From: Alteromonas mediterranea DE
Lineage (GTDB): Bacteria; Pseudomonadota; Gammaproteobacteria; Enterobacterales; Alteromonadaceae
DNA: 64,000 nucleotides
Direction of reading: 5' to 3'
NCBI RefSeq assembly: GCF_000020585.3
Contig: NC_011138.3
Location: forward strand, 1,903,136-1,967,135
A model generated the notes under the pieces. The model made no database searches. It was not told the origin of the DNA and saw only the letters and a list, made by a program, of their open reading frames with translations. Position 1 is the stretch's first letter; each line of letters opens with the position of its first letter. The position numbers were made by a program, and so were the translations under genes. Below, piece by piece: positions 22,036 through 50,643 of the stretch.

Positions 22036-22103
22036 GAGGCCCCAAAAAGGGGCCTCCAGTGCGGCATCCTGCCGCTACCATGTTGAACTGGTGTATCACA
22101 TGG
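22036..22103 (-). ncRNA. structured 3' UTR of DUF3718 gene, copy 1
   Basis: Reading from the stop codon on the minus strand there are three hairpins: (1) CCATGT/ACATGG (22078-22083 / 22098-22103, extended by TGA/TCA), (2) GCGGCA/TGCCGC (22061-22066 / 22070-22075), (3) GAGGCCCC/GGGGCCTC (22036-22043 / 22049-22056). The third lacks a clear T run here. The same order occurs after the two paralogues. Hairpin 2 differs in sequence between copies but stays paired. Confidence 0.65.
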
Positions 22104-22121
22104 TGTGACTTAAATGTTTTA

Positions 22122-22520
22122 TTAGATTCTGCCGTTAAGCTCAGCTGAAATTGGTGAGCTTTGAAGGCCTTGCTCTGCAATCCAAGCTTGAAGAGTCTTG
22201 CCGTCAGCTTCAGGTGCCGCTAGGTCTTTACTTGGCATTTTCTTTACAAGTAGTGTGCCTACGTCCACTGCGTTGTTAGTAATGGCCGTGCGGATAAGGC
22301 TTTGACCGTTACAAGAAATACCTGAGTAGTAATCGCGAAGCTTAAGCTTGTAATCTGACTGTACGCTACGCATTTTTTTGCGTAGTTCGCCTTTGTCATC
22401 TGCCTGTACAATAGTACAGATATTTGCAAGGGCTTCGTTAATGTCATTCGCTTGCGCTGCGTTAGAAAAAGCTAAAGTAGATGCTGCAATTACTAGAGAA
22501 GTTTTAACGATTTTCAACAT
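22122..22520 (-). CDS. DUF3718 family periplasmic protein, copy 1
   Basis: 132 residues with a signal peptide (MLKIVKTSLVIAASTLAFS, cleavage near AQAND). The mature domain has ANICTIVQADDKGELRKKM, DYYSGISCNGQSLIRTA and VGTLLVKKMPSKDL, typical of DUF3718. Two Cys (35 and 70) could form a disulfide. Function unknown. It is nearly identical to the copy at 22764-23162, with a third copy at 30163-30555. An inverted repeat (22621-22638) lies about 100 bp upstream. Start is preceded by GAAGGAA. Confidence 0.88.
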   Translation of the reverse strand: MLKIVKTSLVIAASTLAFSNAAQANDINEALANICTIVQADDKGELRKKMRSVQSDYKLKLRDYYSGISCNGQSLIRTAITNNAVDVGTLLVKKMPSKDLAAPEADGKTLQAWIAEQGLQSSPISAELNGRI

Positions 22521-22620
22521 GGTTAAATTCCTTCGTTTGTTGTTTTTAAGATTATGTTTGTTCGTTGAGATGTATTTAACCTCAAACTAAGTAATTGAAA
22601 AACATGTTGTAAAATAACAG

Positions 22621-22638
22621 GGTATACCAAAGTATACC
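22621..22638. promoter_or_regulatory. candidate operator upstream of DUF3718 copy 1
   Basis: GGTATAC-CAAA-GTATACC, a perfect 7-bp inverted repeat about 100 bp upstream of the start. Related GGTAT/ATACC palindromes sit at matching distances before the other two copies. Confidence 0.5.
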
Positions 22639-22682
22639 TTTGGGTTTGGGCGGGGGGATGAAGCGGAATTAGCCCAATAAAA

Positions 22683-22750
22683 AAGGCCCCGTAGCAGTGG
22701 GGCCTTCGAATGCAGCTATTGCTGCAACCATGTTGAATGGGCTCACATGG
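22683..22750 (-). ncRNA. structured 3' UTR of DUF3718 gene, copy 2, with terminator
   Basis: CCATGT/ACATGG (22728-22733 / 22745-22750), then TGCAGC/GCTGCA (22711-22716 / 22721-22726, loop TATT), then the terminator stem AAGGCCCC/GGGGCCTT (22683-22690 / 22699-22706), followed on the minus strand by a run of T. Order and spacing match copies 1 and 3. Confidence 0.75.
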
Positions 22751-22763
22751 TAATGTGAATAGC

Positions 22764-23162
22764 TTAAATTCTATCGTTCAGTTCGGCAGAGATAGGAGAA
22801 CTCTGTAAGCCTTGTTCTGCAATCCAAGCCTGAAGAGTCTTACCGTCGGCTTCTGGCTGGGTCAAATCCTTACTTGGCATTTTTTTCACCAATAGTGTGC
22901 CTACTTCAACAGCATTGTTGCTTAAAGCTGTTCTAATAAGACTTTGTCCGCCACACGAAACACCAGAGTAGTAATCGCGAAGTTTTAACTTAAAGTCAGA
23001 TTGCACACGACGCATTTTTTTGCGCAGTTCACCTTTGTCGTCTGCTTGCACAATGGTACAAATGTTGGCTAGCGCTTCGTTTACATCGTTTGCTTGCGCT
23101 GTATGTGAGAAAGCTAAGGTAGACGCTGCTATGACTAAAGAGGTTTTAACAATTTTCAACAT
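22764..23162 (-). CDS. DUF3718 family periplasmic protein, copy 2
   Basis: 132 residues, same architecture as copy 1: signal peptide, ANICTIVQADDKGELRKKM, two Cys (SGVSCGGQSL carries the second) and a C-terminal EADGKTLQAWIAEQGLQ. It differs mainly by conservative changes (RRVQSDFKLK, LSNNAVEVG). It is tandem with copy 1, each copy having its own upstream palindrome and 3' hairpins, so the two are separate transcription units and not an operon. Confidence 0.88.
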   Translation of the reverse strand: MLKIVKTSLVIAASTLAFSHTAQANDVNEALANICTIVQADDKGELRKKMRRVQSDFKLKLRDYYSGVSCGGQSLIRTALSNNAVEVGTLLVKKMPSKDLTQPEADGKTLQAWIAEQGLQSSPISAELNDRI

Positions 23163-23257
23163 GGTTAAATTTCCTTCGTTTGTTTGATTAAAAGTTTTGC
23201 TTGTTGGAACTAATTAAAAAACAACCAGGTTGAGTAAAAAACATTCATTCGAATAAC

Positions 23258-23279
23258 AAGGTATATCAGTCAATACCTT
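23258..23279. promoter_or_regulatory. candidate operator upstream of DUF3718 copy 2
   Basis: AAGGTAT / ATACCTT, a perfect 7-bp inverted repeat (spacer 8), about 106 bp from its centre to the start codon. Confidence 0.5.
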
Positions 23280-23388
23280 ATACTAAAGATGTAAGTAGAG
23301 TGGAATTTGCTGTTAGCCTTTAGTATTAAAGGGGTAGAGGGGATGACGGAAGGGGAAATGACTTGATCAATAAAGCAGCAAAAAAGGC

Positions 23389-23419
23389 GCAAAAAAACAG
23401 CGCTTCACTGTTTTTTTGC
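23389..23419 (-). terminator. terminator of the SorC-type regulator transcript
   Basis: GCAAAAAAACAG / CTGTTTTTTTGC, a 12-bp perfect stem with loop CGCTTCA, about 60 bp past the regulator stop. T-rich on the minus strand. Confidence 0.75.
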
Positions 23420-23477
23420 TTTTTCTCAGCGACTTTCGTTGTTAATTTTGAAAAAGTCGTTTCAATTTAAAGTCGTG

Positions 23478-24434
23478 CTATGCATCAAGTAATGCCGACG
23501 CCGTGCGTTCTGTAGTGATTAACCCGTTTAAAAATTTAGAGCGAAGCGCACCTCTAATGGCATTGAATTTGTTGTCTCCCGCAGCAATACCAATAACGGG
23601 TTTCTCTGGGGTGGCTTTAAGTTTAACGCTCGTTACCCGTTGGTTAATGTCGCACTTGATCAATGCGCCCTCTTCGTTAAACACCCAGCTGATAATTTCG
23701 CCGCAAGCGCCTGAGTCGGCTAGAATGCCTAACTCGTCGTCGTCAATGAATCCGTCTTTATATAGCGGAGATACGCTGCCTAGGTTGCCTATGCCTACAA
23801 AGCTGATATCAGCCTGTTCGGCCAACGAATGAATGCGAGATATATGCTTTTGTTGATGCCATACATCTCGTTCCTCTTCGCTCGAAGCAATAACCGGTGT
23901 TGGCATAGGGTAGTGCTGGGCTTTTAATCGGTCAGCAACATGTACCGCCACGTCGTAACGGGTCGCTTCTCCATTTTCAGCTATATTACCGACGAGGGAA
24001 ACAATTTTATGTTGCGGGCAGTGCAATAACGATAACTCATCCGCACAAGCACGAAGCACTCTTCCGGTGCCAAATGCTATGGTTTGCGGAGCGTCGTGTT
24101 TAAGTGCGCGTTCTATAGCTGCCGCGCCGGCCTGTCCCAGCCCCTGTGTAGAGTTAGGGTCGTCATCTACATTTGGCACGATATCGCAAAATGTCAGCCC
24201 AAACTTTTCTCGTAGCCCTTGCGCTAATTCCATGCATCTGGCAATAGGGTGTTCCAAGCGCACTTTAACCAGCCCTTCTGACATAGACAGTGCGACCAGT
24301 CTTTGTGCACTTTGACGGGAAGTTTTAAGGGTTTTCGCTATTTCGTCCTGTGTTTTTCCGCCCACATAATACATCCATCCCGCTCTGGCCGCTTCATCCA
24401 GTTTGTTGAGTTCGTTTTGTGCTTTCTTACTCAT
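23478..24434 (-). CDS. SorC/DeoR-type sugar-binding transcriptional regulator
   Basis: 318 residues. N-terminal helix-turn-helix (GGKTQDEIAKTLKTSRQSAQRLV, about residues 25-48), then a sugar-phosphate-isomerase-like effector domain (IAFGTGRVLRACADEL, FVGIGNLGSVSPL, DSGACGEIISWVFNEEG) as in SorC-family regulators. The start overlaps the end of the HAD gene by 8 bases, so they are one operon. It lies divergently beside the permease-dehydrogenase operon and probably controls it in response to a polyol-derived phosphate. Confidence 0.92.
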   Translation of the reverse strand: MSKKAQNELNKLDEAARAGWMYYVGGKTQDEIAKTLKTSRQSAQRLVALSMSEGLVKVRLEHPIARCMELAQGLREKFGLTFCDIVPNVDDDPNSTQGLGQAGAAAIERALKHDAPQTIAFGTGRVLRACADELSLLHCPQHKIVSLVGNIAENGEATRYDVAVHVADRLKAQHYPMPTPVIASSEEERDVWHQQKHISRIHSLAEQADISFVGIGNLGSVSPLYKDGFIDDDELGILADSGACGEIISWVFNEEGALIKCDINQRVTSVKLKATPEKPVIGIAAGDNKFNAIRGALRSKFLNGLITTERTASALLDA

Positions 24435-25101
24435 GTTTTTTTCTCGTATTAAATAAGTCAGGGAACCGTGTTGTAAACCCGTCCCAAGAAGTAATGGTGT
24501 GCTCGTTGTGTTCTACTAGGTTACGTAAATGAGTACCGCCTGTGTAGTGAAGGTAGCGCATTCCGGCGGCTTTTGCCCCCGCCAAGCCTGGCTCGGAGTC
24601 TTCAATCACTAAACAGGTGCGTGGGCTGCAATTAAGTGCATTGGCGGCATAAAGAAATAAGTCTGGCGCTGGTTTACCTCTGCTTACCAATGAGCGGGTA
24701 AATATACGGTCGTTAAAATAGGTAATTAGGCCAGTACTTTTTAATGCTTTTTCGGTTCTCTCTGGTGAACTGCTTGTCGCCACGCAAAAGGGGACACGCA
24801 ACGAAGAGAGAACATCTATAATGCCTGACGTTGCAGTTAGGTGGCGTTCAAAGGCGTGAAAAAGCAGTGTATGAAACTCACTTTCCAGAGAAGGGGTCAA
24901 TGAAAGCGCAAAATCCTCTTCTATTTTGCTCCTTACATGCTCCATGCTTTTGCCTAGAAAGTTTTCGATAAAATACTGCTTAGTGAGTGCAATATCATAA
25001 TTCGCTAAAACCGATTTCCACGCCTGCATAGACAGCACTTCGCTATCTATAAGTACACCATCACAGTCAAAAATAACTAAATCAATGTTATCAGTTCGCA
25101 A
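24427..25101 (-). CDS. HAD-IA family sugar-phosphatase-like hydrolase
   Basis: 224 residues. HAD motif I FDCDGVLIDSE with cap insertion, motif II Thr/Ser in VATSSSPERT, motif III Lys in SRGKPAPDLFLYAA and motif IV EDSEPGLAGAKAAGM. This is the beta-phosphoglucomutase-like subgroup (YieH/YniC-type phosphatases). It is transcribed first in a two-gene operon with the SorC-type regulator. Context suggests a sugar or polyol phosphate as substrate. Confidence 0.92.
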   Translation of the reverse strand: MRTDNIDLVIFDCDGVLIDSEVLSMQAWKSVLANYDIALTKQYFIENFLGKSMEHVRSKIEEDFALSLTPSLESEFHTLLFHAFERHLTATSGIIDVLSSLRVPFCVATSSSPERTEKALKSTGLITYFNDRIFTRSLVSRGKPAPDLFLYAANALNCSPRTCLVIEDSEPGLAGAKAAGMRYLHYTGGTHLRNLVEHNEHTITSWDGFTTRFPDLFNTRKKHE

Positions 25102-25577
25102 GAATCACCCTTAATGCATTTACCATAGTTTTGCCTTATTCCATACTTTCCTACGCAATACCTGTTCAATGATTACAAGGGAAATAAAAAGCACCCCTTG
25201 AATATTTGCTTAAGTGTAAAGTAATTGATGCCAACGTTTCTACCGTTAATTTAATGCGCCAATCGCGATAACGCTGTTTTACGTAAACTCGCTGAAATTA
25301 CTCAATGTATTAACAATACCATTTTATATCTTCGCTATTTACTTCAAAGAGATACCCCTAAGGGAAAAGGCTGGCGTACATTTGTTGAGCAATTTTGTCG
25401 TGTTAAAAATTTAACGCATAGCGACTTTATTTTGTTAATTCGTGTTTACAAATGAAGGGGTATGTGCAAATATTCACGAAAATGAGATATGTCTCACAAG
25501 TTGGGCAATTGCTCTATCTGCATTGTCGCTACAAAGACACAACAAAGAGACATCCACCTATAACAAGAGATTTGAAG
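25102..25577. other. divergent control region of the sugar-alcohol locus
   Basis: 476 bp without a gene between the HAD-regulator operon (minus) and the permease operon (plus). AT-rich. It holds a palindrome at 25483-25496 and an imperfect one just upstream (GTGCAAATATTCAC at 25464-25477). Confidence 0.6.
25483..25496. promoter_or_regulatory. candidate operator of the permease-dehydrogenase operon
   Basis: TGAGA-TATG-TCTCA, a perfect 5-bp-arm palindrome about 80 bp before the permease start. A second imperfect dyad lies about 20 bp upstream, consistent with a multimeric SorC-type regulator. Motif-based only. Confidence 0.35.
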
Positions 25578-27293
25578 ATGAAGTCAACGTCGAGCGATAT
25601 TGATATTTCAAAAGTAAGCGACGAGCAACTGCCGGTCGCAAAGCATAAACTTAAAGGCTGGAAGCACTTCATGGGCTTGTATGCCGGTGAACACGTTGCG
25701 GCCACAGAGTTTGTTTTCGGTGCAACGTTTGTCGCCTTAGGCGCCACCATGACCGACATCTTGTTAGGCTTACTTATTGGTAACCTACTGGCTGTTTTGA
25801 GCTGGACACTTATCACTACACCTATAGCTGTTGAAACCCGTCTAAGCTTGTACTCCTATCTTCAGAAGATAGCGGGTGATTCAATGACCAAGCTCTATAA
25901 CTGGGCGAATGTGATCATATTCACCGTTATTTCCGCTGCGATGATTACCGTATCAGCCACTGCCGTTCGATTTGCGTTAAACATTCCAGCGCAGTTGAAC
26001 TGGTACCCGACTAATTTAGCATTTGTTGCTGTTGTGTTGGCTGTGGGCGTTATTGTTGTGTTTGTTGCCATGTACGGTTTTAACGCTGTGTCGGACTTCT
26101 CTCGTATTTGTGCCCCTTGGCTTTTCACTATGTTTATCTGTGGTCCACTTATTCTTATGCCTGCATTGGCAGAATCTGTGATAGGACAAACATTCTTAAC
26201 GTCGTGGAACGACTTTATGCATATCGGCAGTACGTCGGTGTGGACCGGTTTAACGCAAAGCGGTGAACCAGGAATTGGCTTATTAGAAGTTATTGGGTTC
26301 TCTTGGGCAGCAAATACCATCACGCATTTTGGCCTTATTGATATGGCGCTACTACGCTTTGCGAAACGCAAGCGCTACGGTCTTTGCACCTCAGCAGGCA
26401 TGTTGTTTGGTCACTATATCGCATGGATCTCAGCGGGTATTATGGGCGCGGGGACTGCGGTTATTGTGCAGAAATCTATTGTAGAACTTGATCCAGGTGA
26501 CGTGGCATTCCACGCGTTAGGTCTCTCTGGTCTTGTTATTGTTATCGTTGCCGGCTGGACTACCGCAAACGCTAACCTTTATCGTGCCGGACTTGCTGCA
26601 CAAGCTATTTTTAAAGATAAATCACGTACTAAAACCACTGCTATAGTTGGTATGGTTACCGTAGCCATCGCGTGCTTCCCATTCGTATTTACTAAGTTGC
26701 TGCCACTTTTAACTTATGCCGGGCTGCTTGTTGTTCCAGTCGGTGCAATAGTCTTCGCTGAGCATATGATTTTTCCTCGCATTGGGTTTACACGTTACTG
26801 GGCCCATTATCAAAGCCTTACCCATAGCACACCCGCTGTTGCAAGCTGGGGCCTAGGACTTGTGTTCGGCTTTGGGTTAAATGCGTTAGATGTTATTTCA
26901 TTCTATTACCTGTTTATCCCTACATGGTTCTTCACAATAGCCGTATATACCGTGCTTGCTGCTAAATACGGCGCGAAAGAAGAATACCCTGAGCAACAAG
27001 CGCAAGTGAAGGCCTTTGACGAGCGTGTTGAAGAACACCAACAGCAAGAAGCGGCGTTAGAAAGCGACCACGTTGAGGATATCAGCGCCGCAACTAAATT
27101 ATTGCGCCTTACTTCTGTAGCTAGCTTACTTGTGTCCATCGCGCTAGCAATTAAAACGTTTTCTCTTAGTGACACGCTTGCCGTGTACGAATCGAACCGT
27201 GATTTATTTTTCAATATAGGGTTCGCGTGCACCGTTATCTATTTCGTTACTGCGTATTGGGCGATGCGTCGCCAGAAAGCGCTACAAAGCTAA
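25578..27293 (+). CDS. NCS1-type permease, probable sugar-alcohol transporter
   Basis: About 571 residues with roughly twelve hydrophobic segments and hydrophilic ends (N-terminus from ATG 25578; C-terminal Glu/Gln-rich linker about 480-525, then two more helices). Motifs such as GLYAGEHVAATEFVFGA, AANTITHFGLIDMALLRF and AGWTTANANLYRAGLA resemble cytosine/purine permeases (nucleobase:cation symporter 1). No purine or pyrimidine gene is near; mannitol 2-dehydrogenase starts 10 bp downstream. So a polyol substrate is inferred. Earlier in-frame starts lie in the control region. Confidence 0.8.
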   Translation: MKSTSSDIDISKVSDEQLPVAKHKLKGWKHFMGLYAGEHVAATEFVFGATFVALGATMTDILLGLLIGNLLAVLSWTLITTPIAVETRLSLYSYLQKIAGDSMTKLYNWANVIIFTVISAAMITVSATAVRFALNIPAQLNWYPTNLAFVAVVLAVGVIVVFVAMYGFNAVSDFSRICAPWLFTMFICGPLILMPALAESVIGQTFLTSWNDFMHIGSTSVWTGLTQSGEPGIGLLEVIGFSWAANTITHFGLIDMALLRFAKRKRYGLCTSAGMLFGHYIAWISAGIMGAGTAVIVQKSIVELDPGDVAFHALGLSGLVIVIVAGWTTANANLYRAGLAAQAIFKDKSRTKTTAIVGMVTVAIACFPFVFTKLLPLLTYAGLLVVPVGAIVFAEHMIFPRIGFTRYWAHYQSLTHSTPAVASWGLGLVFGFGLNALDVISFYYLFIPTWFFTIAVYTVLAAKYGAKEEYPEQQAQVKAFDERVEEHQQQEAALESDHVEDISAATKLLRLTSVASLLVSIALAIKTFSLSDTLAVYESNRDLFFNIGFACTVIYFVTAYWAMRRQKALQS

Positions 27294-27303
27294 TAAGGTT
27301 TTT

Positions 27304-28839
27304 ATGCAATCTCAAACGACAATTTTATTAAACAGAGCTAACTTGCCATCCTTGCCAGCTGACGTTAAGCGTCCAGCTTATGATGTGGAGAATGTTCAAA
27401 CGGGTATTGTTCACATCGGCGTGGGTGGGTTTCATCGTGCACATGAAGCCATGTATGTAGACAGATTAATGGCCAAGACCGGTAATTTGTCGTGGGGTAT
27501 TTGTGGTGTAGGCCTTCGTGAAAACGACCGAGCAATGAAAAAAGTGTTCGATGAGCAAGACAATCTTTACACATTGGTTGAAAAGCACAATGACGGGTCG
27601 CGCTCTGCGTCAGTGATAGGTGCGATGACTGGTTTCTTAATGGCGCCAGATAATCCTCAAGCTGTCATTGATAAAATGTCTGAGCCTGAAGTGCGTATCG
27701 TTTCTTTAACCATCACTGAAGGTGGTTATAACTTTGATGCATCTACAGGTGAGTTTATTACCACTAACCCAGATGTGCTTCACGACATCGAAAATCCGAA
27801 AAGCCCTAAACTGGTTTTTGGCTACTTAGTTGCTGCAATCAAAAAGCGCAGAGAAAACAACGTTAAGCCCTTTACGGTTATGTCGTGCGACAATATTCAG
27901 CACAACGGTCATGTGTTGAAGAAGATGTTGCTAGCTTATATTGAGTTATTCGACCAAGCATTAGCGCAGTGGGTTAACGAGAACGTCAGCTTTCCTAATT
28001 CTATGGTAGACAGAATTACGCCTGCGACTACAAGCGAAGATATAGTAATGCTTAAAGCACAAGGGGTAGAAGATAGCTGGCCAGTAGTATGTGAGCCTTT
28101 CAAGCAGTGGGTTATTGAAGATGACTTTTGTAATACTAAGCCACAGTTTGATGAAGTGGACGCACAATTTGTTAGCGATGTAGCGCCTTATGAAAAGCTT
28201 AAACTACGCATGCTAAATGCTGGGCATTCAGTATTAGGGCTAGTGGGTTCAGTTGCCGGTCTTGATATTATCCATGAGAGTGTAGAAGCTGCGCAATTAA
28301 AACAGCTATTGTCTATCTTTATGGAAAAAGAGGTGATGCCAACCCTAGATCAGGTTGAAGGCATTGATGTATTTGATTATCGCGATACGTTAATCTCTCG
28401 TTTTTCAAATCCTTTTATCAAAGATACCTTAGCGCGTATTTGCTTAGAAAGTTCAGCCAAACTGCCAGTGTTCTTGCTGCCTACGGTACGTGATAACTTA
28501 GTAGCCGGGCGTGATGTAAGTATTAGTGCCTTCGTTGTCGCGTGTTGGTCGTATTATTCAGATAAACACGCGTCTCAAGACGGAAAGCCGCTAGAAATTA
28601 ACGACGTATTGTCTGATACACTTCATCGCGCTGCCCAGCAAAATGAAACAGACAGCTTAAGCTTCTTGAAGATAGAAGAAGTGTTTGGTGAGCTTGCTCA
28701 GCAAGAAAAATTTGCTGATGTCTACAAGGCATTCCTTGAGCGTGTTTATCAAAATGAGCCTGTACTTTCGATAAGCGAAGCACTTTCGGAGGAAAAGCTA
28801 GCGGTGGCTAAGGAAGATGCGAATAAGTCCCCGATGTGA
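27304..28839 (+). CDS. mannitol 2-dehydrogenase family protein (3' end altered by IS)
   Basis: Polyol-specific long-chain dehydrogenase oxidising mannitol (or arabitol/sorbitol) to the ketose with NAD. 511 residues; the N-terminal IVHIGVGGFHRAHEAMYVDRL, EGGYNF, PFTVMSCDNIQHNG and the active-site KLRMLNAGHSVLGLVGS are typical. It is co-transcribed with the permease. The last eight codons lie in an IS5-type element; removing the element and one target copy gives a 505-residue protein ending AVAKAS, so the enzyme is probably still active. Confidence 0.94.
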   Translation: MQSQTTILLNRANLPSLPADVKRPAYDVENVQTGIVHIGVGGFHRAHEAMYVDRLMAKTGNLSWGICGVGLRENDRAMKKVFDEQDNLYTLVEKHNDGSRSASVIGAMTGFLMAPDNPQAVIDKMSEPEVRIVSLTITEGGYNFDASTGEFITTNPDVLHDIENPKSPKLVFGYLVAAIKKRRENNVKPFTVMSCDNIQHNGHVLKKMLLAYIELFDQALAQWVNENVSFPNSMVDRITPATTSEDIVMLKAQGVEDSWPVVCEPFKQWVIEDDFCNTKPQFDEVDAQFVSDVAPYEKLKLRMLNAGHSVLGLVGSVAGLDIIHESVEAAQLKQLLSIFMEKEVMPTLDQVEGIDVFDYRDTLISRFSNPFIKDTLARICLESSAKLPVFLLPTVRDNLVAGRDVSISAFVVACWSYYSDKHASQDGKPLEINDVLSDTLHRAAQQNETDSLSFLKIEEVFGELAQQEKFADVYKAFLERVYQNEPVLSISEALSEEKLAVAKEDANKSPM

Positions 28840-30004
28840 GATCATAGCTGCATAGTAAATCACAGCCATTACCGCCCATGAGCCAACAGTTAACTTTTGC
28901 CGATAGCGAGTTTTCCAGCAAGCGCCGTCAGACCCGTAAAGAGATATTCTTATCCAGAATGGATAACCTGCTGCCGTGGTCTCAATTGCTGGAAGTGATT
29001 GAACCCTTTTATCCTAAAGCAGGCAATGGCAGACGTCCATATGCGCTTGAGACCATGTTTCGCATTCACTGTATGCAGCAATGGTATAGCCTCGGTGATG
29101 AAGCGATGGAAGATGCGTTATATGAAATTGCTTCGATGCGTCAGTTTGCGCAACTGTCACTGGATAAAGCCATTCCTGACCGCACCACCATTATGAACTT
29201 CCGTCACTTGCTGGAAAAGCACAAGCTGACTCGCCAATTATTCAAAACGGTCAACCAATGGCTGTCGGAGTGCGGTGTGATGATGACGCAGGGTACACTG
29301 GTGGATGCGACGATTATTGAAGCTCCCAGCTCCACCAAGAATAAAAAGAATGAGCGTGACCCGGATATGCACCAGACCAAAAAAGGTAATGAATGGCACT
29401 TCGGCATGAAAGCCCATATAGGAGTGGATGCCAAGAGTGGCCTGACGCATACGCTGGTGACCACTGCCGCCAACGAACATGACCTGAATCAGATGAAGAA
29501 CCTGTTGCATGGCGATGAGGAATTCATCTCTGGCGATGCTGGATATCAAGGCGCAGAGAAGCGTGAAGAACTTAAAGAAAAGGATGTGGAATGGCTGATT
29601 GCTGAGCGTCCCGGAAAGGTTCGGGCACTGAAAAAGCATCCCCGCAAAAACAAAACTGCCATCAACATCGAATATTTAAAAGCCAGCATCCGAGCAAAAG
29701 TTGAACACCCGTTTCGCATCATCAAATGTCAGTTCGGCTTTATCAAAGCACGCTATAAAGGGCTGACAAAAAATGACTCACAGTTAGCCATGCTATTCAC
29801 CTTGGCGAACCTGTTTAAAGTAGACCAGATGTTACGACGACAGCCAAGATCTGTCTGAAATCCGGGAATAGCCCGGAATTAGGTCGAAATCCGGCCTAAA
29901 ACGGCAGTATATTGGCCAAAATTGAGAATTTAGCGTTCAAAAATTAGACGGCGAATGCAAAGGCTGGTTCAAGAACTAAATTGCAGGACTTATTCGCAGT
30001 TTCC
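28812..30004 (+). mobile_element. IS5-family insertion sequence (1193 bp)
   Basis: Terminal inverted repeats GGAAGATGCGAATAAGTCC (28812-28830) and the complement of 29986-30004 (GGAAACTGCGAATAAGTCC) match at 17 of 19 positions. A 4-bp direct repeat CTAA flanks it (28808-28811 and 30005-30008), fitting the YTAR target of IS5-group elements. One transposase gene lies inside. The intact duplication and ends suggest a recent insertion. Confidence 0.93.
28878..29858 (+). CDS. IS5-family transposase
   Basis: 326-residue DDE transposase. The first catalytic Asp is in [12 protein letters not shown], the second in [13 protein letters not shown], and the Glu in [16 protein letters not shown] (the Y-(2)-R-(3)-E-(6)-K-type signature region). 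N-terminal DUF772 domain ([21 protein letters not shown]). Full length with no frameshift. It may be read from the permease-dehydrogenase promoter, because the operon terminator now lies beyond the element. Confidence 0.96.
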
Positions 30005-30036
30005 CTAAAGCCAGTTAGATACTAATTAATAAATAA

Positions 30037-30063
30037 AAGGAGAGTTAATATTAACTCTCCTTT
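30037..30063 (+). terminator. original terminator of the permease-dehydrogenase operon
   Basis: GGAGAGTTAA / TTAACTCTCC with AAA/TTT extensions and a T run. It is about 25 bp past the ancestral mannitol dehydrogenase stop (TAG at about 30015-30017), now separated from the gene by the IS. Confidence 0.85.
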
Positions 30064-30083
30064 TTTTCATCTTGAAAAGAAAA

Positions 30084-30150
30084 AAGCGACCCGGAGGTCG
30101 CTTCTTAAAGTGCAGATTACTCTGCAACCATGTTGAACTGATTCACATGG
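30084..30150 (-). ncRNA. structured 3' UTR of DUF3718 gene, copy 3, with terminator
   Basis: CCATGT/ACATGG (30128-30133 / 30145-30150), TGCAGA/TCTGCA (30111-30116 / 30121-30126, loop TTAC) and terminator stem AAGCGACC/GGTCGCTT (30084-30091 / 30096-30103) with a minus-strand T run. Stem 2 and the terminator differ in sequence from copies 1 and 2 but keep pairing. Confidence 0.75.
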
Positions 30151-30162
30151 CGTGAAAGGGGG

Positions 30163-30555
30163 TTACAGTCTGTCGTTAATTACCGCTGCAATTGGGTTGT
30201 CTTGCAAGCCGTTTTCGGCAACCCATGCTTGCAGTGTTTTACCGTCTGCTTCAGGCGCATTTAAATCGCTCTTGGGCATTTTCTTAACCAGTAGCTCACC
30301 AGCTTCTACTGCGTTACTTAGCAGAGCCGTACGAATTAGGCTGTTACCACTACAGCTAATGCCTGAGTAATAATCTTTAAGCTTCATACGATAATCTGAT
30401 TCAACTGAACGCATCTTCTTACGAAGCTCGCCTTTATCGTCAGCTTGTACAATAGTGCAAATGTTTGCTAGCGCCTCGCTTACATCTGCGTGTGCCATAC
30501 CTGACATGCCAAATGTTGCTGCGATAACAAGAGAAGTTTTAACGATTTTCAACAT
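30163..30555 (-). CDS. DUF3718 family periplasmic protein, copy 3
   Basis: 130 residues; same family as the genes at 22122 and 22764 but more diverged (signal peptide ends HADVSE; MRSVESDYRMKLKDYYSGISC; ENGLQDNPIAAVINDRL). Two Cys (33 and 68) are conserved. Together with copies 1 and 2 it flanks the sugar-alcohol locus, which suggests that locus was placed into, or the genes were spread from, one DUF3718 array. Function unknown. Confidence 0.88.
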   Translation of the reverse strand: MLKIVKTSLVIAATFGMSGMAHADVSEALANICTIVQADDKGELRKKMRSVESDYRMKLKDYYSGISCSGNSLIRTALLSNAVEAGELLVKKMPKSDLNAPEADGKTLQAWVAENGLQDNPIAAVINDRL

Positions 30556-30642
30556 GGTTAATTCCTCAAGTAAGTTGTTTGAATATTCGTTCGTTGGAAA
30601 CGATTAAACAATATTCATGAGAGGTTAGAAACGCCGTAATCG

Positions 30643-37492: not shown

Positions 37493-37569
<77 letters not shown>

Positions 37570-37622
37570 CAGAAAATAAACCAGAATTTCAAAGCTTTGC
37601 AATGCAAGCTTTACCGTACAAT

Positions 37623-37699
<77 letters not shown>

Positions 37700-37753
37700 T
37701 ATTTATATAGCCAGAATTATAAAGCATCGCAACACCATGCTTTACCGTACAGT

Positions 37754-37830
<77 letters not shown>

Positions 37831-42395: not shown

Positions 42396-42575
42396 ATTAA
42401 GTGATGAGCGCGGGCTCCCTCAGAGTTCAGAAATGAGTGTTCAGGAAAGTAACGCCCTCATCCATAGCAAGCTATCACCTAACGGTGGTTTTACCCATAA
42501 GTTTGCAACTGCCCTTGTTGGCAGGTATGGGTTCAGAATTTTAATAAAAGCCCCGCTAGTCCGGGGCTTTTTGTT
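42396..42575 (+). ncRNA. candidate structured RNA, about 180 nt, before rimP
   Basis: Begins about 7 bases after TATAAT and ends at an intrinsic terminator (42546-42571). Long-range pairing GATGAG/CTCATC (42403-42408 / 42457-42462, extended by GCG/CGC past a mismatch), CACC/GGTG (42476-42479 / 42484-42487), ACCCATA/TATGGGT (42493-42499 / 42526-42532) enclosing CTGCC/GGCAG (42509-42513 / 42520-42524). Not a tRNA, 6S or 4.5S by eye. It could be an independent RNA or the leader of rimP-nusA-infB. Confidence 0.6.
42546..42571 (+). terminator. terminator upstream of rimP
   Basis: AAAAGCCCCG / CGGGGCTTTT, a 10-bp stem with loop CTAGTC and T residues. It ends the candidate RNA and would act as an attenuator if read through into rimP. 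Confidence 0.9.
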
Positions 42576-42621
42576 GTATTAAAACCTGGAGTCAGCCTCG
42601 CTGAGCCGGGTGATGACAGGT

Positions 42622-42640
42622 GGGCTTTAGGCCCTTTTTT
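42622..42640 (+). promoter_or_regulatory. rimP leader attenuator-like hairpin
   Basis: GGGC-TTTAG-GCCC followed by six T residues, ending eight bases before the rimP ribosome site. Short terminator-like hairpins at this place are known in enterobacteria (the rimP-leader motif). Assignment by position and shape. Confidence 0.6.
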
Positions 42641-42658
42641 CGTTTTTGGAGGTTTGCA

Positions 42659-50311: not shown

Positions 50312-50373
50312 ACGGCGCTCATTCCGCTTTGCTGAATTAGTGATCGGCGAAGCATTAATATTAGGAGAATGAC

Positions 50374-50643
50374 ATGTCACTAACTAAAGCAGAAACCGCG
50401 AAAATCATTGCTGAGTACGGCGTTAAAGAAGGCGACACTGGTTCACCAGAAGTTCAAGTTGCTTTGCTTACTCACAACATCAACAAGCTTCAAGGTCACT
50501 TCGCTGATCACAAGAAAGATCACCACTCACGTCGTGGTCTTCTACGTATGGTTAGCCAACGTCGTAAGCTTCTAGACTACCTTAAAGGCAAGAACGCTGA
50601 GCGTTACCTTGACCTAATCAAGCGTCTAGGCCTTCGTCGATAA
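50374..50643 (+). CDS. rpsO: 30S ribosomal protein S15
   Basis: Primary 16S rRNA-binding protein. 89 residues, family length: [52 protein letters not shown]. It usually regulates its own leader. Only the rpsO-proximal part of the classical rpsO-pnp pair is present; pnp does not follow here, and a terminator plus rluF on the other strand come next. Confidence 0.98.

Follow-up and report, generated by a model that had tools for sequence, protein, structure and literature searches.

A conserved element in the 3' untranslated regions of DUF3718 genes of Alteromonas and related genera is complementary to their translation start: a candidate self-antisense regulator

Three DUF3718 genes and their start-complementary 3' ends

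We analysed a 64,000-nucleotide (nt) stretch of the genome of Alteromonas mediterranea DE (contig NC_011138.3, positions 1,903,136 to 1,967,135; referred to as the window), which contains three genes of the protein family DUF3718, and focused on a short element in their 3' untranslated regions (UTRs) that is complementary to the translation start of the same genes. All three genes, and all of their features given below, are on the minus strand. Copy 1 (22122..22520) and copy 2 (22764..23162) each encode 132 amino acids, and copy 3 (30163..30555) encodes 130. These open reading frames match the profile PF12514 with E-values of 2.6e-22, 9e-21 and 4.1e-20, respectively, and with scores of 79.3, 74.3 and 72.2 bits against a curated cut-off of 22.5, which places them in the family. 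By eye, copy 1 has a signal-peptide-like N-terminus, and its nearest relatives among the named records are from Alteromonas species.

As the original prediction had claimed, and as both the sequence and its folding confirm, each of the three stop codons is followed in the same order by a CCATGT/ACATGG hairpin (hairpin 1), a second hairpin (hairpin 2) and a G+C-rich terminator-type hairpin (hairpin 3). Hairpin 1 is located at 22078..22103 in copy 1, at 22728..22750 in copy 2 and at 30128..30150 in copy 3. What that prediction missed is that one arm of hairpin 1, the invariant one, is complementary to the region around the gene's own start codon. Together with its neighbouring bases, this 3' arm forms the 11-nt sequence TTCAACATGGT (22077..22087, 22727..22737 and 30127..30137 in copies 1 to 3), hereafter the anti-start element, which is the exact reverse complement of the start region ACCATGTTGAA of the same gene (22513..22523, 23155..23165 and 30548..30558). 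The latter, the presumed target, spans positions -3 to +8, from three bases before the ATG to the eighth base of the gene. Exact complementarity between start and element extends over 11 nt in copy 1 and over 12 nt in copies 2 and 3.

The genome consists of one contig of 4,480,937 bases, in which the 11-mer ACCATGTTGAA has eight sites on both strands together. Six of these are the three starts and the three 3' UTRs, and the same 11-mer read backwards has a single site. The remaining two sites are within reading frames of 542 amino acids (antisense, locus L151) and 166 amino acids (L150), neither of them at a start, which rules out a third RNA encoded in this genome with an exact partner. We also rejected an antisense reading frame that would begin at the ATG of the element's complement, as it is only 22, 7 and 3 codons long in the three copies. 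At least one copy of the 11-mer is present in 242 of the 246 genomes of the family, which indicates a background of chance sites. Close inverted pairs of the 11-mer also occur among the matches listed, for example four in genome G389.

Conservation of the element and of the start region

Genes of this subfamily were gathered from 79 named loci as well as from genomes within the genus and across the wider order. Removal of duplicates left 155 of 180 genes, 147 of which were kept (at least 115 amino acids, with at least 120 nt downstream), and the addition of five MLK-type genes yielded a set of 152. The element, whole or with one end changed, was found behind 126 of these 152 distinct genes; the hairpins of the original prediction are thus not absent beside the DUF3718 genes of relatives. 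Within 150 nt downstream, the best match to the 11-mer had no mismatch in 117 genes, one in 10, two in none and three or more in 25, whereas one shuffled sequence per gene had two mismatches in three genes and never zero or one. The element is nearly all-or-nothing, and genes with three or more mismatches match it no better than shuffled sequence does. It occurs, among the named loci, in Alteromonas, Salinimonas, Marisediminitalea, Aestuariibacter, Aliiglaciecola and Paraglaciecola, and its distance from the stop codon differs between genes. On the protein tree, parsimony requires at least 14 changes between presence and absence; many forks of this tree have weak support, and on the well-supported branches no more than four changes are required.

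The start region is conserved to a similar degree in the genes that carry the element. The second codon is TTG (Leu) and the third is AAA (Lys) in all 126 of them, while at other conserved positions the commonest codon accounts for 26-42% of Leu and 57-89% of Lys. Upstream of the ATG, positions -3, -2 and -1 are A, C and C in 138, 143 and 144 of 147 genes, with A at -4 in 118 and T at -5 in 129. Starts that depart from the consensus are found in 10 of the 26 genes without the element and in 8 of the 126 with it (Fisher p 7e-5, uncorrected for descent). Those in genes with the element mostly keep pairing through G-U (ATC and GCC starts, e.g., in L143, L154, L178 and L066). If G-U is allowed, the ten positions from -3 to +7 pair with the consensus element in 124 of the 126 starts with the element and in 21 of the 26 without it.

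We scored the predicted duplex between start and 3' UTR against dinucleotide shuffles, with the UTRs clipped before the terminator (re-clipped for the third clade described below). Non-duplicate pairs with 12 nt or more remaining after clipping were scored, namely those of 123 of the 126 genes with the element, 25 of the 32 genes of the third clade and 85 of 92 other DUF3718 genes. The mean z-score was -2.62 with the element (n = 123), -0.14 without it (n = 26) and 0.15 for the other DUF3718 genes (n = 85). The latter show no signal as a group; 4 of the 85 are matched by at most 1 of 60 shuffles. Raw duplex energies of unclipped UTRs were rejected as a measure, because they leave the groups unseparated (-22.1 with the element, -15.0 after mononucleotide shuffling, -15.5 without the element and -20.0 for other DUF3718 genes).

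Structure of the 3' UTR

The 130 nt downstream of copies 1 to 3 fold with minimum free energies of -41.5, -44.0 and -51.1, and hairpin 3 ends 82-86 nt past the stop codon, which would be the length of the 3' UTR if transcription ends there. Hairpin 1 had been described as conserved in sequence. It is present in all three copies, and only its 3' arm is constant among relatives. The partner arm upstream of the element contains CCATG or CATGT in 97 of the 126 genes and a shorter CCAT in nine more. A CCATGT-type arm is missing in 29 of the 126 and any CCAT in 20, so that hairpin 1 is ruled out as a constant feature. In three of these 20 genes (L055, L064 and L084) the stop codon is 2-5 nt from the element, leaving no room for an arm, and some of the 20 may form other hairpins that were not counted (in L178, TGTTGA with TCAACA). 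With its 3' arm fixed, hairpin 1 shows no covariation. Its appearance as a conserved hairpin can be explained by its 5' arm, CCATGTGA, which imitates the start region.

Hairpin 2 (22061..22075 in copy 1, GCGGCA/TGCCGC; 22711..22726 in copy 2, TGCAGC/GCTGCA; 30111..30126 in copy 3, TGCAGA/TCTGCA) shows the opposite pattern, with a stem that is kept while its sequence changes. A stem of at least five pairs (G-U allowed) starts 0-6 nt past the element in all 126 genes, with 57 different 5' arms; a stem of this type also forms in 42% of shuffles that keep base content only (1059/2520). Out of 72 non-redundant 3' UTRs that had all been picked for containing TCAACATGG, we selected 35 by eye and aligned them, with a preference for shorter hairpin-2 stems, a selection that favours alignability; the three window copies are among the 35. 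In this alignment, hairpin 2 is paired in 89.7%, and six of its seven pairs change on both sides, including one that is G-C in 18 sequences and A-U in 17 with no exception. The covariation score of 0.477, compared to 0.02-0.12 for slid partners, was reached by none of 500 shuffles. The stem of the terminator-type hairpin covaries too, with 77% of the cells paired and a register that differs between subgroups. The compensatory changes that the original prediction saw in hairpins 2 and 3 are thus upheld in the larger sample, and the covariation of hairpin 2 supports its argument for selection on the RNA, with controls that are not fully corrected for descent. RNAalifold alone reports just hairpin 2, to which it adds three pairs that reach into the element, with the terminator in different registers by subgroup, and the RNAalifold consensus was not adopted. 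A covariance model built from the 35 sequences scores the window copies at 54.9 to 73.3 bits, by construction, as they are among its rows. Up to an E-value of 1, it has three further, weak matches in the window (15.9-18.8 bits), at gene starts on the opposite strand, which are the same 11-mer.

Hairpin 3 of copy 1 (22036..22056, GAGGCCCC/GGGGCCTC) resembles a terminator without a T run. A terminator scan found intrinsic-terminator-like hairpins in copy 2 (22682..22707) and copy 3 (30081..30106) and did not find that of copy 1. Copy 1 had been thought to have lost its T run; there is indeed none, and this is no private loss, as the same GGGGCCTCACCCCTTTC end is present in L097, L100, L101, L105 and others. 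Past hairpin 3, copy 1 and several orthologues have, in place of a T run, similar pyrimidine tails that resemble CACCCCTTTC. No family of Rfam release 15 matched the 3' UTR region at its cut-off, and the matches on the 3' UTR of copy 2 to Leu_leader (18.8 bits, cut-off 50) and STnc100 (16.9 bits, cut-off 47) are not credible. A promoter scan predicted one site per region, compared to 2.3 and 1.5 in shuffles.

Start-complementary 3' UTRs in other DUF3718 lineages

Two further groups of DUF3718 genes contain 3' UTR sequences that are complementary to their own start region. In another family of the same order (f7), 6 of 34 DUF3718 genes (L205, L213, L264, L266, L269 and L277) have the sequence TTAGCTCCTCTCGA in their 3' UTR, in the loop and arm of a hairpin that precedes a G+C-rich hairpin. 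This sequence is unrelated to the Alteromonas-type element and is complementary over 8-10 nt to the genes' own Shine-Dalgarno region. The mean duplex z-score is -3.30 for these six genes and 0.16 for the other 28. Among the 40 genomes of this family, the 14-mer TTAGCTCCTCTCGA has one site each in six and none elsewhere, and all six sites are in these DUF3718 3' UTRs; read backwards, it has three matches in two genomes.

The other group is a third clade, whose proteins start with MKKLL and which spans several genera of the window's own family. Here, 12 of 32 genes (L328, L332-L337, L342, L343, L345, L358 and L165), several of which are close relatives, form a duplex for which at most 1 in 200 dinucleotide-shuffled sequences is as strong; one locus of the clade, L350, was left unparsed. 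The strongest duplexes reach -29 kcal/mol and belong to one genus (L332, L336 and L337). In L342, L343 and L345, the start region seems to recur over much of the 3' UTR in inverted and imperfect form, which may illustrate how elements of this kind originate. Covariation between codon 7 and the 3' UTR in this clade was rejected as evidence: the direction is as expected (an A in the 3' UTR in 5 of 18 genes with GTT and in 0 of 12 with GCT, with 2 of the 32 genes lacking a readable base), with a p of 0.066 and few independent changes. Directly before the terminator, MKKLL-type genes of many genera (L328-L358) also have a well-conserved 3' UTR string that resembles GTTTTACTAGTTAATAATTCTTATGTC, even where complementarity to the start is weak.

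A proposed self-antisense mechanism and its alternatives

We consider it likely that the 3' UTR acts as a self-antisense regulator in these DUF3718 genes, with the element blocking initiation on its own and on paralogous mRNAs. The conserved complementarity is well supported, and regulation by it is a proposal that we draw from sequence comparison. In this model, TTCAACATGGT in the 3' UTR would base-pair with ACCATGTTGAA of the same and of paralogous mRNAs, such that the ribosome could not initiate. The tail thus probably switches off translation of its own message and of its sister genes, and the outcome would be negative feedback and a levelling of dosage between the copies. Where it is present, hairpin 1 might serve as a latch whose 5' arm imitates the target and masks the element: with 6-7 pairs and -8.5 to -9.2 kcal/mol, it would compete inside the tail with the longer duplex to the start, the best of which is predicted at -16.2 to -21.3 kcal/mol, a value to which pairs beyond the element also contribute. 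A stable scaffold at the 3' end would be provided by hairpin 2 together with the terminator-type hairpin. Element and start do not differ between the three copies, and hardly do so across genera, so that any tail can pair with any start, which favours action in trans as well as in cis. Action in trans could be that of the whole mRNA or of a small RNA cut from it, and the chances for and against a processed small RNA seem to us roughly even. The original prediction, which proposed a regulatory 3' UTR or a 3'-derived small RNA, pointed in the right direction and missed the likely target, namely the translation starts of the gene itself and of its paralogues.

A bolder reading seems to us plausible, though we stop short of favouring it: DUF3718 genes would have evolved, time and again, a 3' UTR that is antisense to the ribosome-binding region of the same gene, and the sequences that do so in at least three lineages would be unrelated. 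Within a genome, paralogues would then form one RNA-mediated silencing network, in which a tail can shut the starts of its sisters and a message is translated mainly before its own tail has been made.

Several observations weigh against the proposed regulation. Of the 152 subfamily genes, 26 lack the element, including some with an element-bearing paralogue next to them (L015, L036, L045 and L058), and a search for TTCAACATGG had no hit in the 34 genes of family f7 or in 104 distant DUF3718 genes that are not of the MLK type. On the start side, TTG is also the second codon in 23 of the 26 genes without the element, and the conservation of the start region may be due to initiation itself. When descent is controlled for, the association between start and element is reduced to four well-supported independent pairs (2.0 in the same direction and 0.1 in the opposite one), which is not significant. 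No two-sided compensatory change between start and element was seen within the Alteromonas type, in which we found only changes tolerated through G-U and mismatches at the ends. Just 72 of the 123 scored genes with the element are matched by at most 1 of 60 shuffles, and raw unclipped energies hardly separate the genes with the element (-22.1) from other DUF3718 genes (-20.0). In the third clade, 20 of the 32 genes fail, with 4 of 200 shuffles matching one of them and 16 or more matching each of the others. In copies 1 and 3, nearly all bases in the 3' half of the element are paired within the tail itself, while a longer fragment of copy 2 has an alternative fold in which the element is mostly open. 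Finally, the 9-mer CCATGTTGA is in excess in the genome, with 53 sites compared to 21 when read backwards.

Action purely in cis is a possible, if somewhat unlikely, alternative. The 3' UTR would fold back on the start of its own mRNA, and there would be neither a separate small RNA nor cross-talk among paralogues. One transcript does carry both start and element, at a distance of 420-449 nt in 142 of 166 pairs from the named loci (overlapping loci being counted repeatedly), and the six f7 genomes have one copy each of their element. The sameness of start and element in the three copies and their near-identity across genera, with no gene-specific compensated pairs seen, are instead expected if one tail recognises several starts. 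The OppZ study also excluded long-distance pairing within one molecule for that system and found that processing was needed (PMC7398697).

The complementarity to the gene's own start could alternatively be a side effect in a 3'-derived small RNA aimed mainly at other genes, which we regard as improbable. Most small RNAs derived from mRNA 3' ends act on other genes, and the DUF3718 tails resemble the known ones in their exposable seed, structured 3' end and, in two of the three copies, terminator-like hairpin. Just 6 of the 53 CCATGTTGA sites in the genome belong to DUF3718 genes. When 30 of the 53 were inspected, those at a credible start with a ribosome-binding site were, in our judgement, at the three DUF3718 genes only. 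As far as these 30 sites go, the circuit looks private to the DUF3718 family.

The remaining explanations have still less in their favour. We think it quite improbable that the tails are ordinary 3' ends, i.e., terminator regions that were inherited by duplication, with an accidental or functionless match to the start. The copies are paralogues, terminator hairpins vary in paired fashion anyway, and copies 2 and 3 each have, after the stop codon, one hairpin that resembles an ordinary intrinsic terminator. Against this, the 11-mer is kept while its spacer, hairpin partner and distance from the stop codon change; the 35 aligned 3' UTRs, a set selected for the presence of TCAACATGG, have a mean column identity of 55%; the start side is nearly invariant at positions that are synonymous or untranslated; and unrelated start-complementary motifs are found at the same place in other DUF3718 lineages. 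We likewise give little credence to the element being a site for a third party, either an RNA-binding protein or a DNA-binding protein on the dyad CCATGT-N-ACATGG, with the same factor also binding the start. The element is half of a CCATGT dyad in 93 of the 126 genes, and one protein could read a double-stranded motif at both places. However, the 11-mer stays where the CCATGT-type arm or any CCAT is absent, and start and 3' UTR carry opposite strands, as pairing demands, unlike the sites of a single-strand binder. The two other exact 11-mer sites, both in reading frames, also leave no intergenic third RNA with a full-length exact partner. Lastly, start and element match exactly as inverted repeats with about 430 bp between them; that they are DNA-level repeats of 11-12 bp which flank the gene and allow its inversion is nonetheless very improbable, as no inverted form was noticed among the matches listed (a weak point, since the search began from genes with an intact start), and as the complementarity in f7 targets the Shine-Dalgarno region and that of the third clade is different and interrupted.

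Relation to known systems

To our knowledge, only a few single cases of bacterial self-regulation between a 3' UTR and its own start have been described. Small RNAs of the class of OppZ and CarZ end in an intrinsic terminator; in DUF3718, hairpin 3 is terminator-like in copies 2 and 3 and a stem without a T run in copy 1. The icaR-type 3' UTR is over 100 nt long, and those of the three window copies would be 82-86 nt if transcription ends after hairpin 3. The principle of the proposed regulation is most likely like that of icaR and of OppZ and CarZ, with the gene family, the sequence and its conservation being new.

In the icaR mRNA of Staphylococcus aureus, the 3' UTR motif UCCCCUG pairs with the gene's own ribosome-binding region, blocks initiation and creates a substrate for RNase III; it is absent from the icaR genes of four other staphylococci (PMC3868564). 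DUF3718 shares with this account a 3' UTR motif that is complementary to its own ribosome-binding region, at the start codon in the Alteromonas type and at the Shine-Dalgarno sequence in the six f7 genes. As described there, icaR is a single gene with a long 3' UTR, whose motif is 260 nt past the stop codon and covers 7 nt of the Shine-Dalgarno sequence (PMC3868564). DUF3718, unlike icaR in that description, has a short 3' UTR with 11-12 nt on the start codon, conservation across genera, several paralogues and an element that is often in a masking hairpin.

OppZ and CarZ of Vibrio cholerae are presented as self-regulating small RNAs that are derived from 3' UTRs and cut out by RNase E, with OppZ being Hfq-dependent, pairing ahead of oppB and sparing the first gene of its operon (PMC7398697). 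DUF3718 likewise has a seed that is complementary to a translation start on its own transcript. By that account OppZ and CarZ lie in operons, whereas the DUF3718 genes are paralogous single genes. A review names these two as the first examples that control their own expression, and describes other small RNAs with a common origin at the 3' end of an mRNA (PMC9438474). The primary transcriptome of Alteromonas macleodii Te101 includes 127 chromosomal small RNAs, and a word search for 'DUF' in the main text of that paper, supplements excluded, had no hit (PMC5864184).

No paper using the word DUF3718 was found in the open-licence literature, which leaves most subscription papers outside. Searches of the same literature on Hfq, UTRs, small RNAs and transcription start sites in Alteromonas, on self-complementarity of UTRs and on autoregulatory antisense small RNAs yielded nothing on an anti-start element among the matches listed. 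If the pairing is true, it would be readable from sequence alone over many species, common to paralogues, and would have arisen more than once in one protein family. Action in cis or in trans, levelling of paralogue dosage and evolution of the element would then become testable by comparison, and genomes could be subjected to a simple screen for 3' UTRs that are antisense to their own start regions. It would also provide a first handle on DUF3718, a family of exported-looking proteins.

Genomic neighbourhood

Upstream-adjacent on the map, copy 3 is adjoined by a transposase gene (28878-29858), which we take to be IS5-like, and beside this is a gene that is presumably mannitol-dehydrogenase-like (27304-28839). 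Between copy 3 and the transposase gene, a 13-pair stem with A and T runs on both sides (30035-30064) is a possible two-way terminator. Farther along the window are three tRNA genes (37493-37827) and Rfam matches to a rimP leader and an S15 leader (42510-42641 and 50324-50430).

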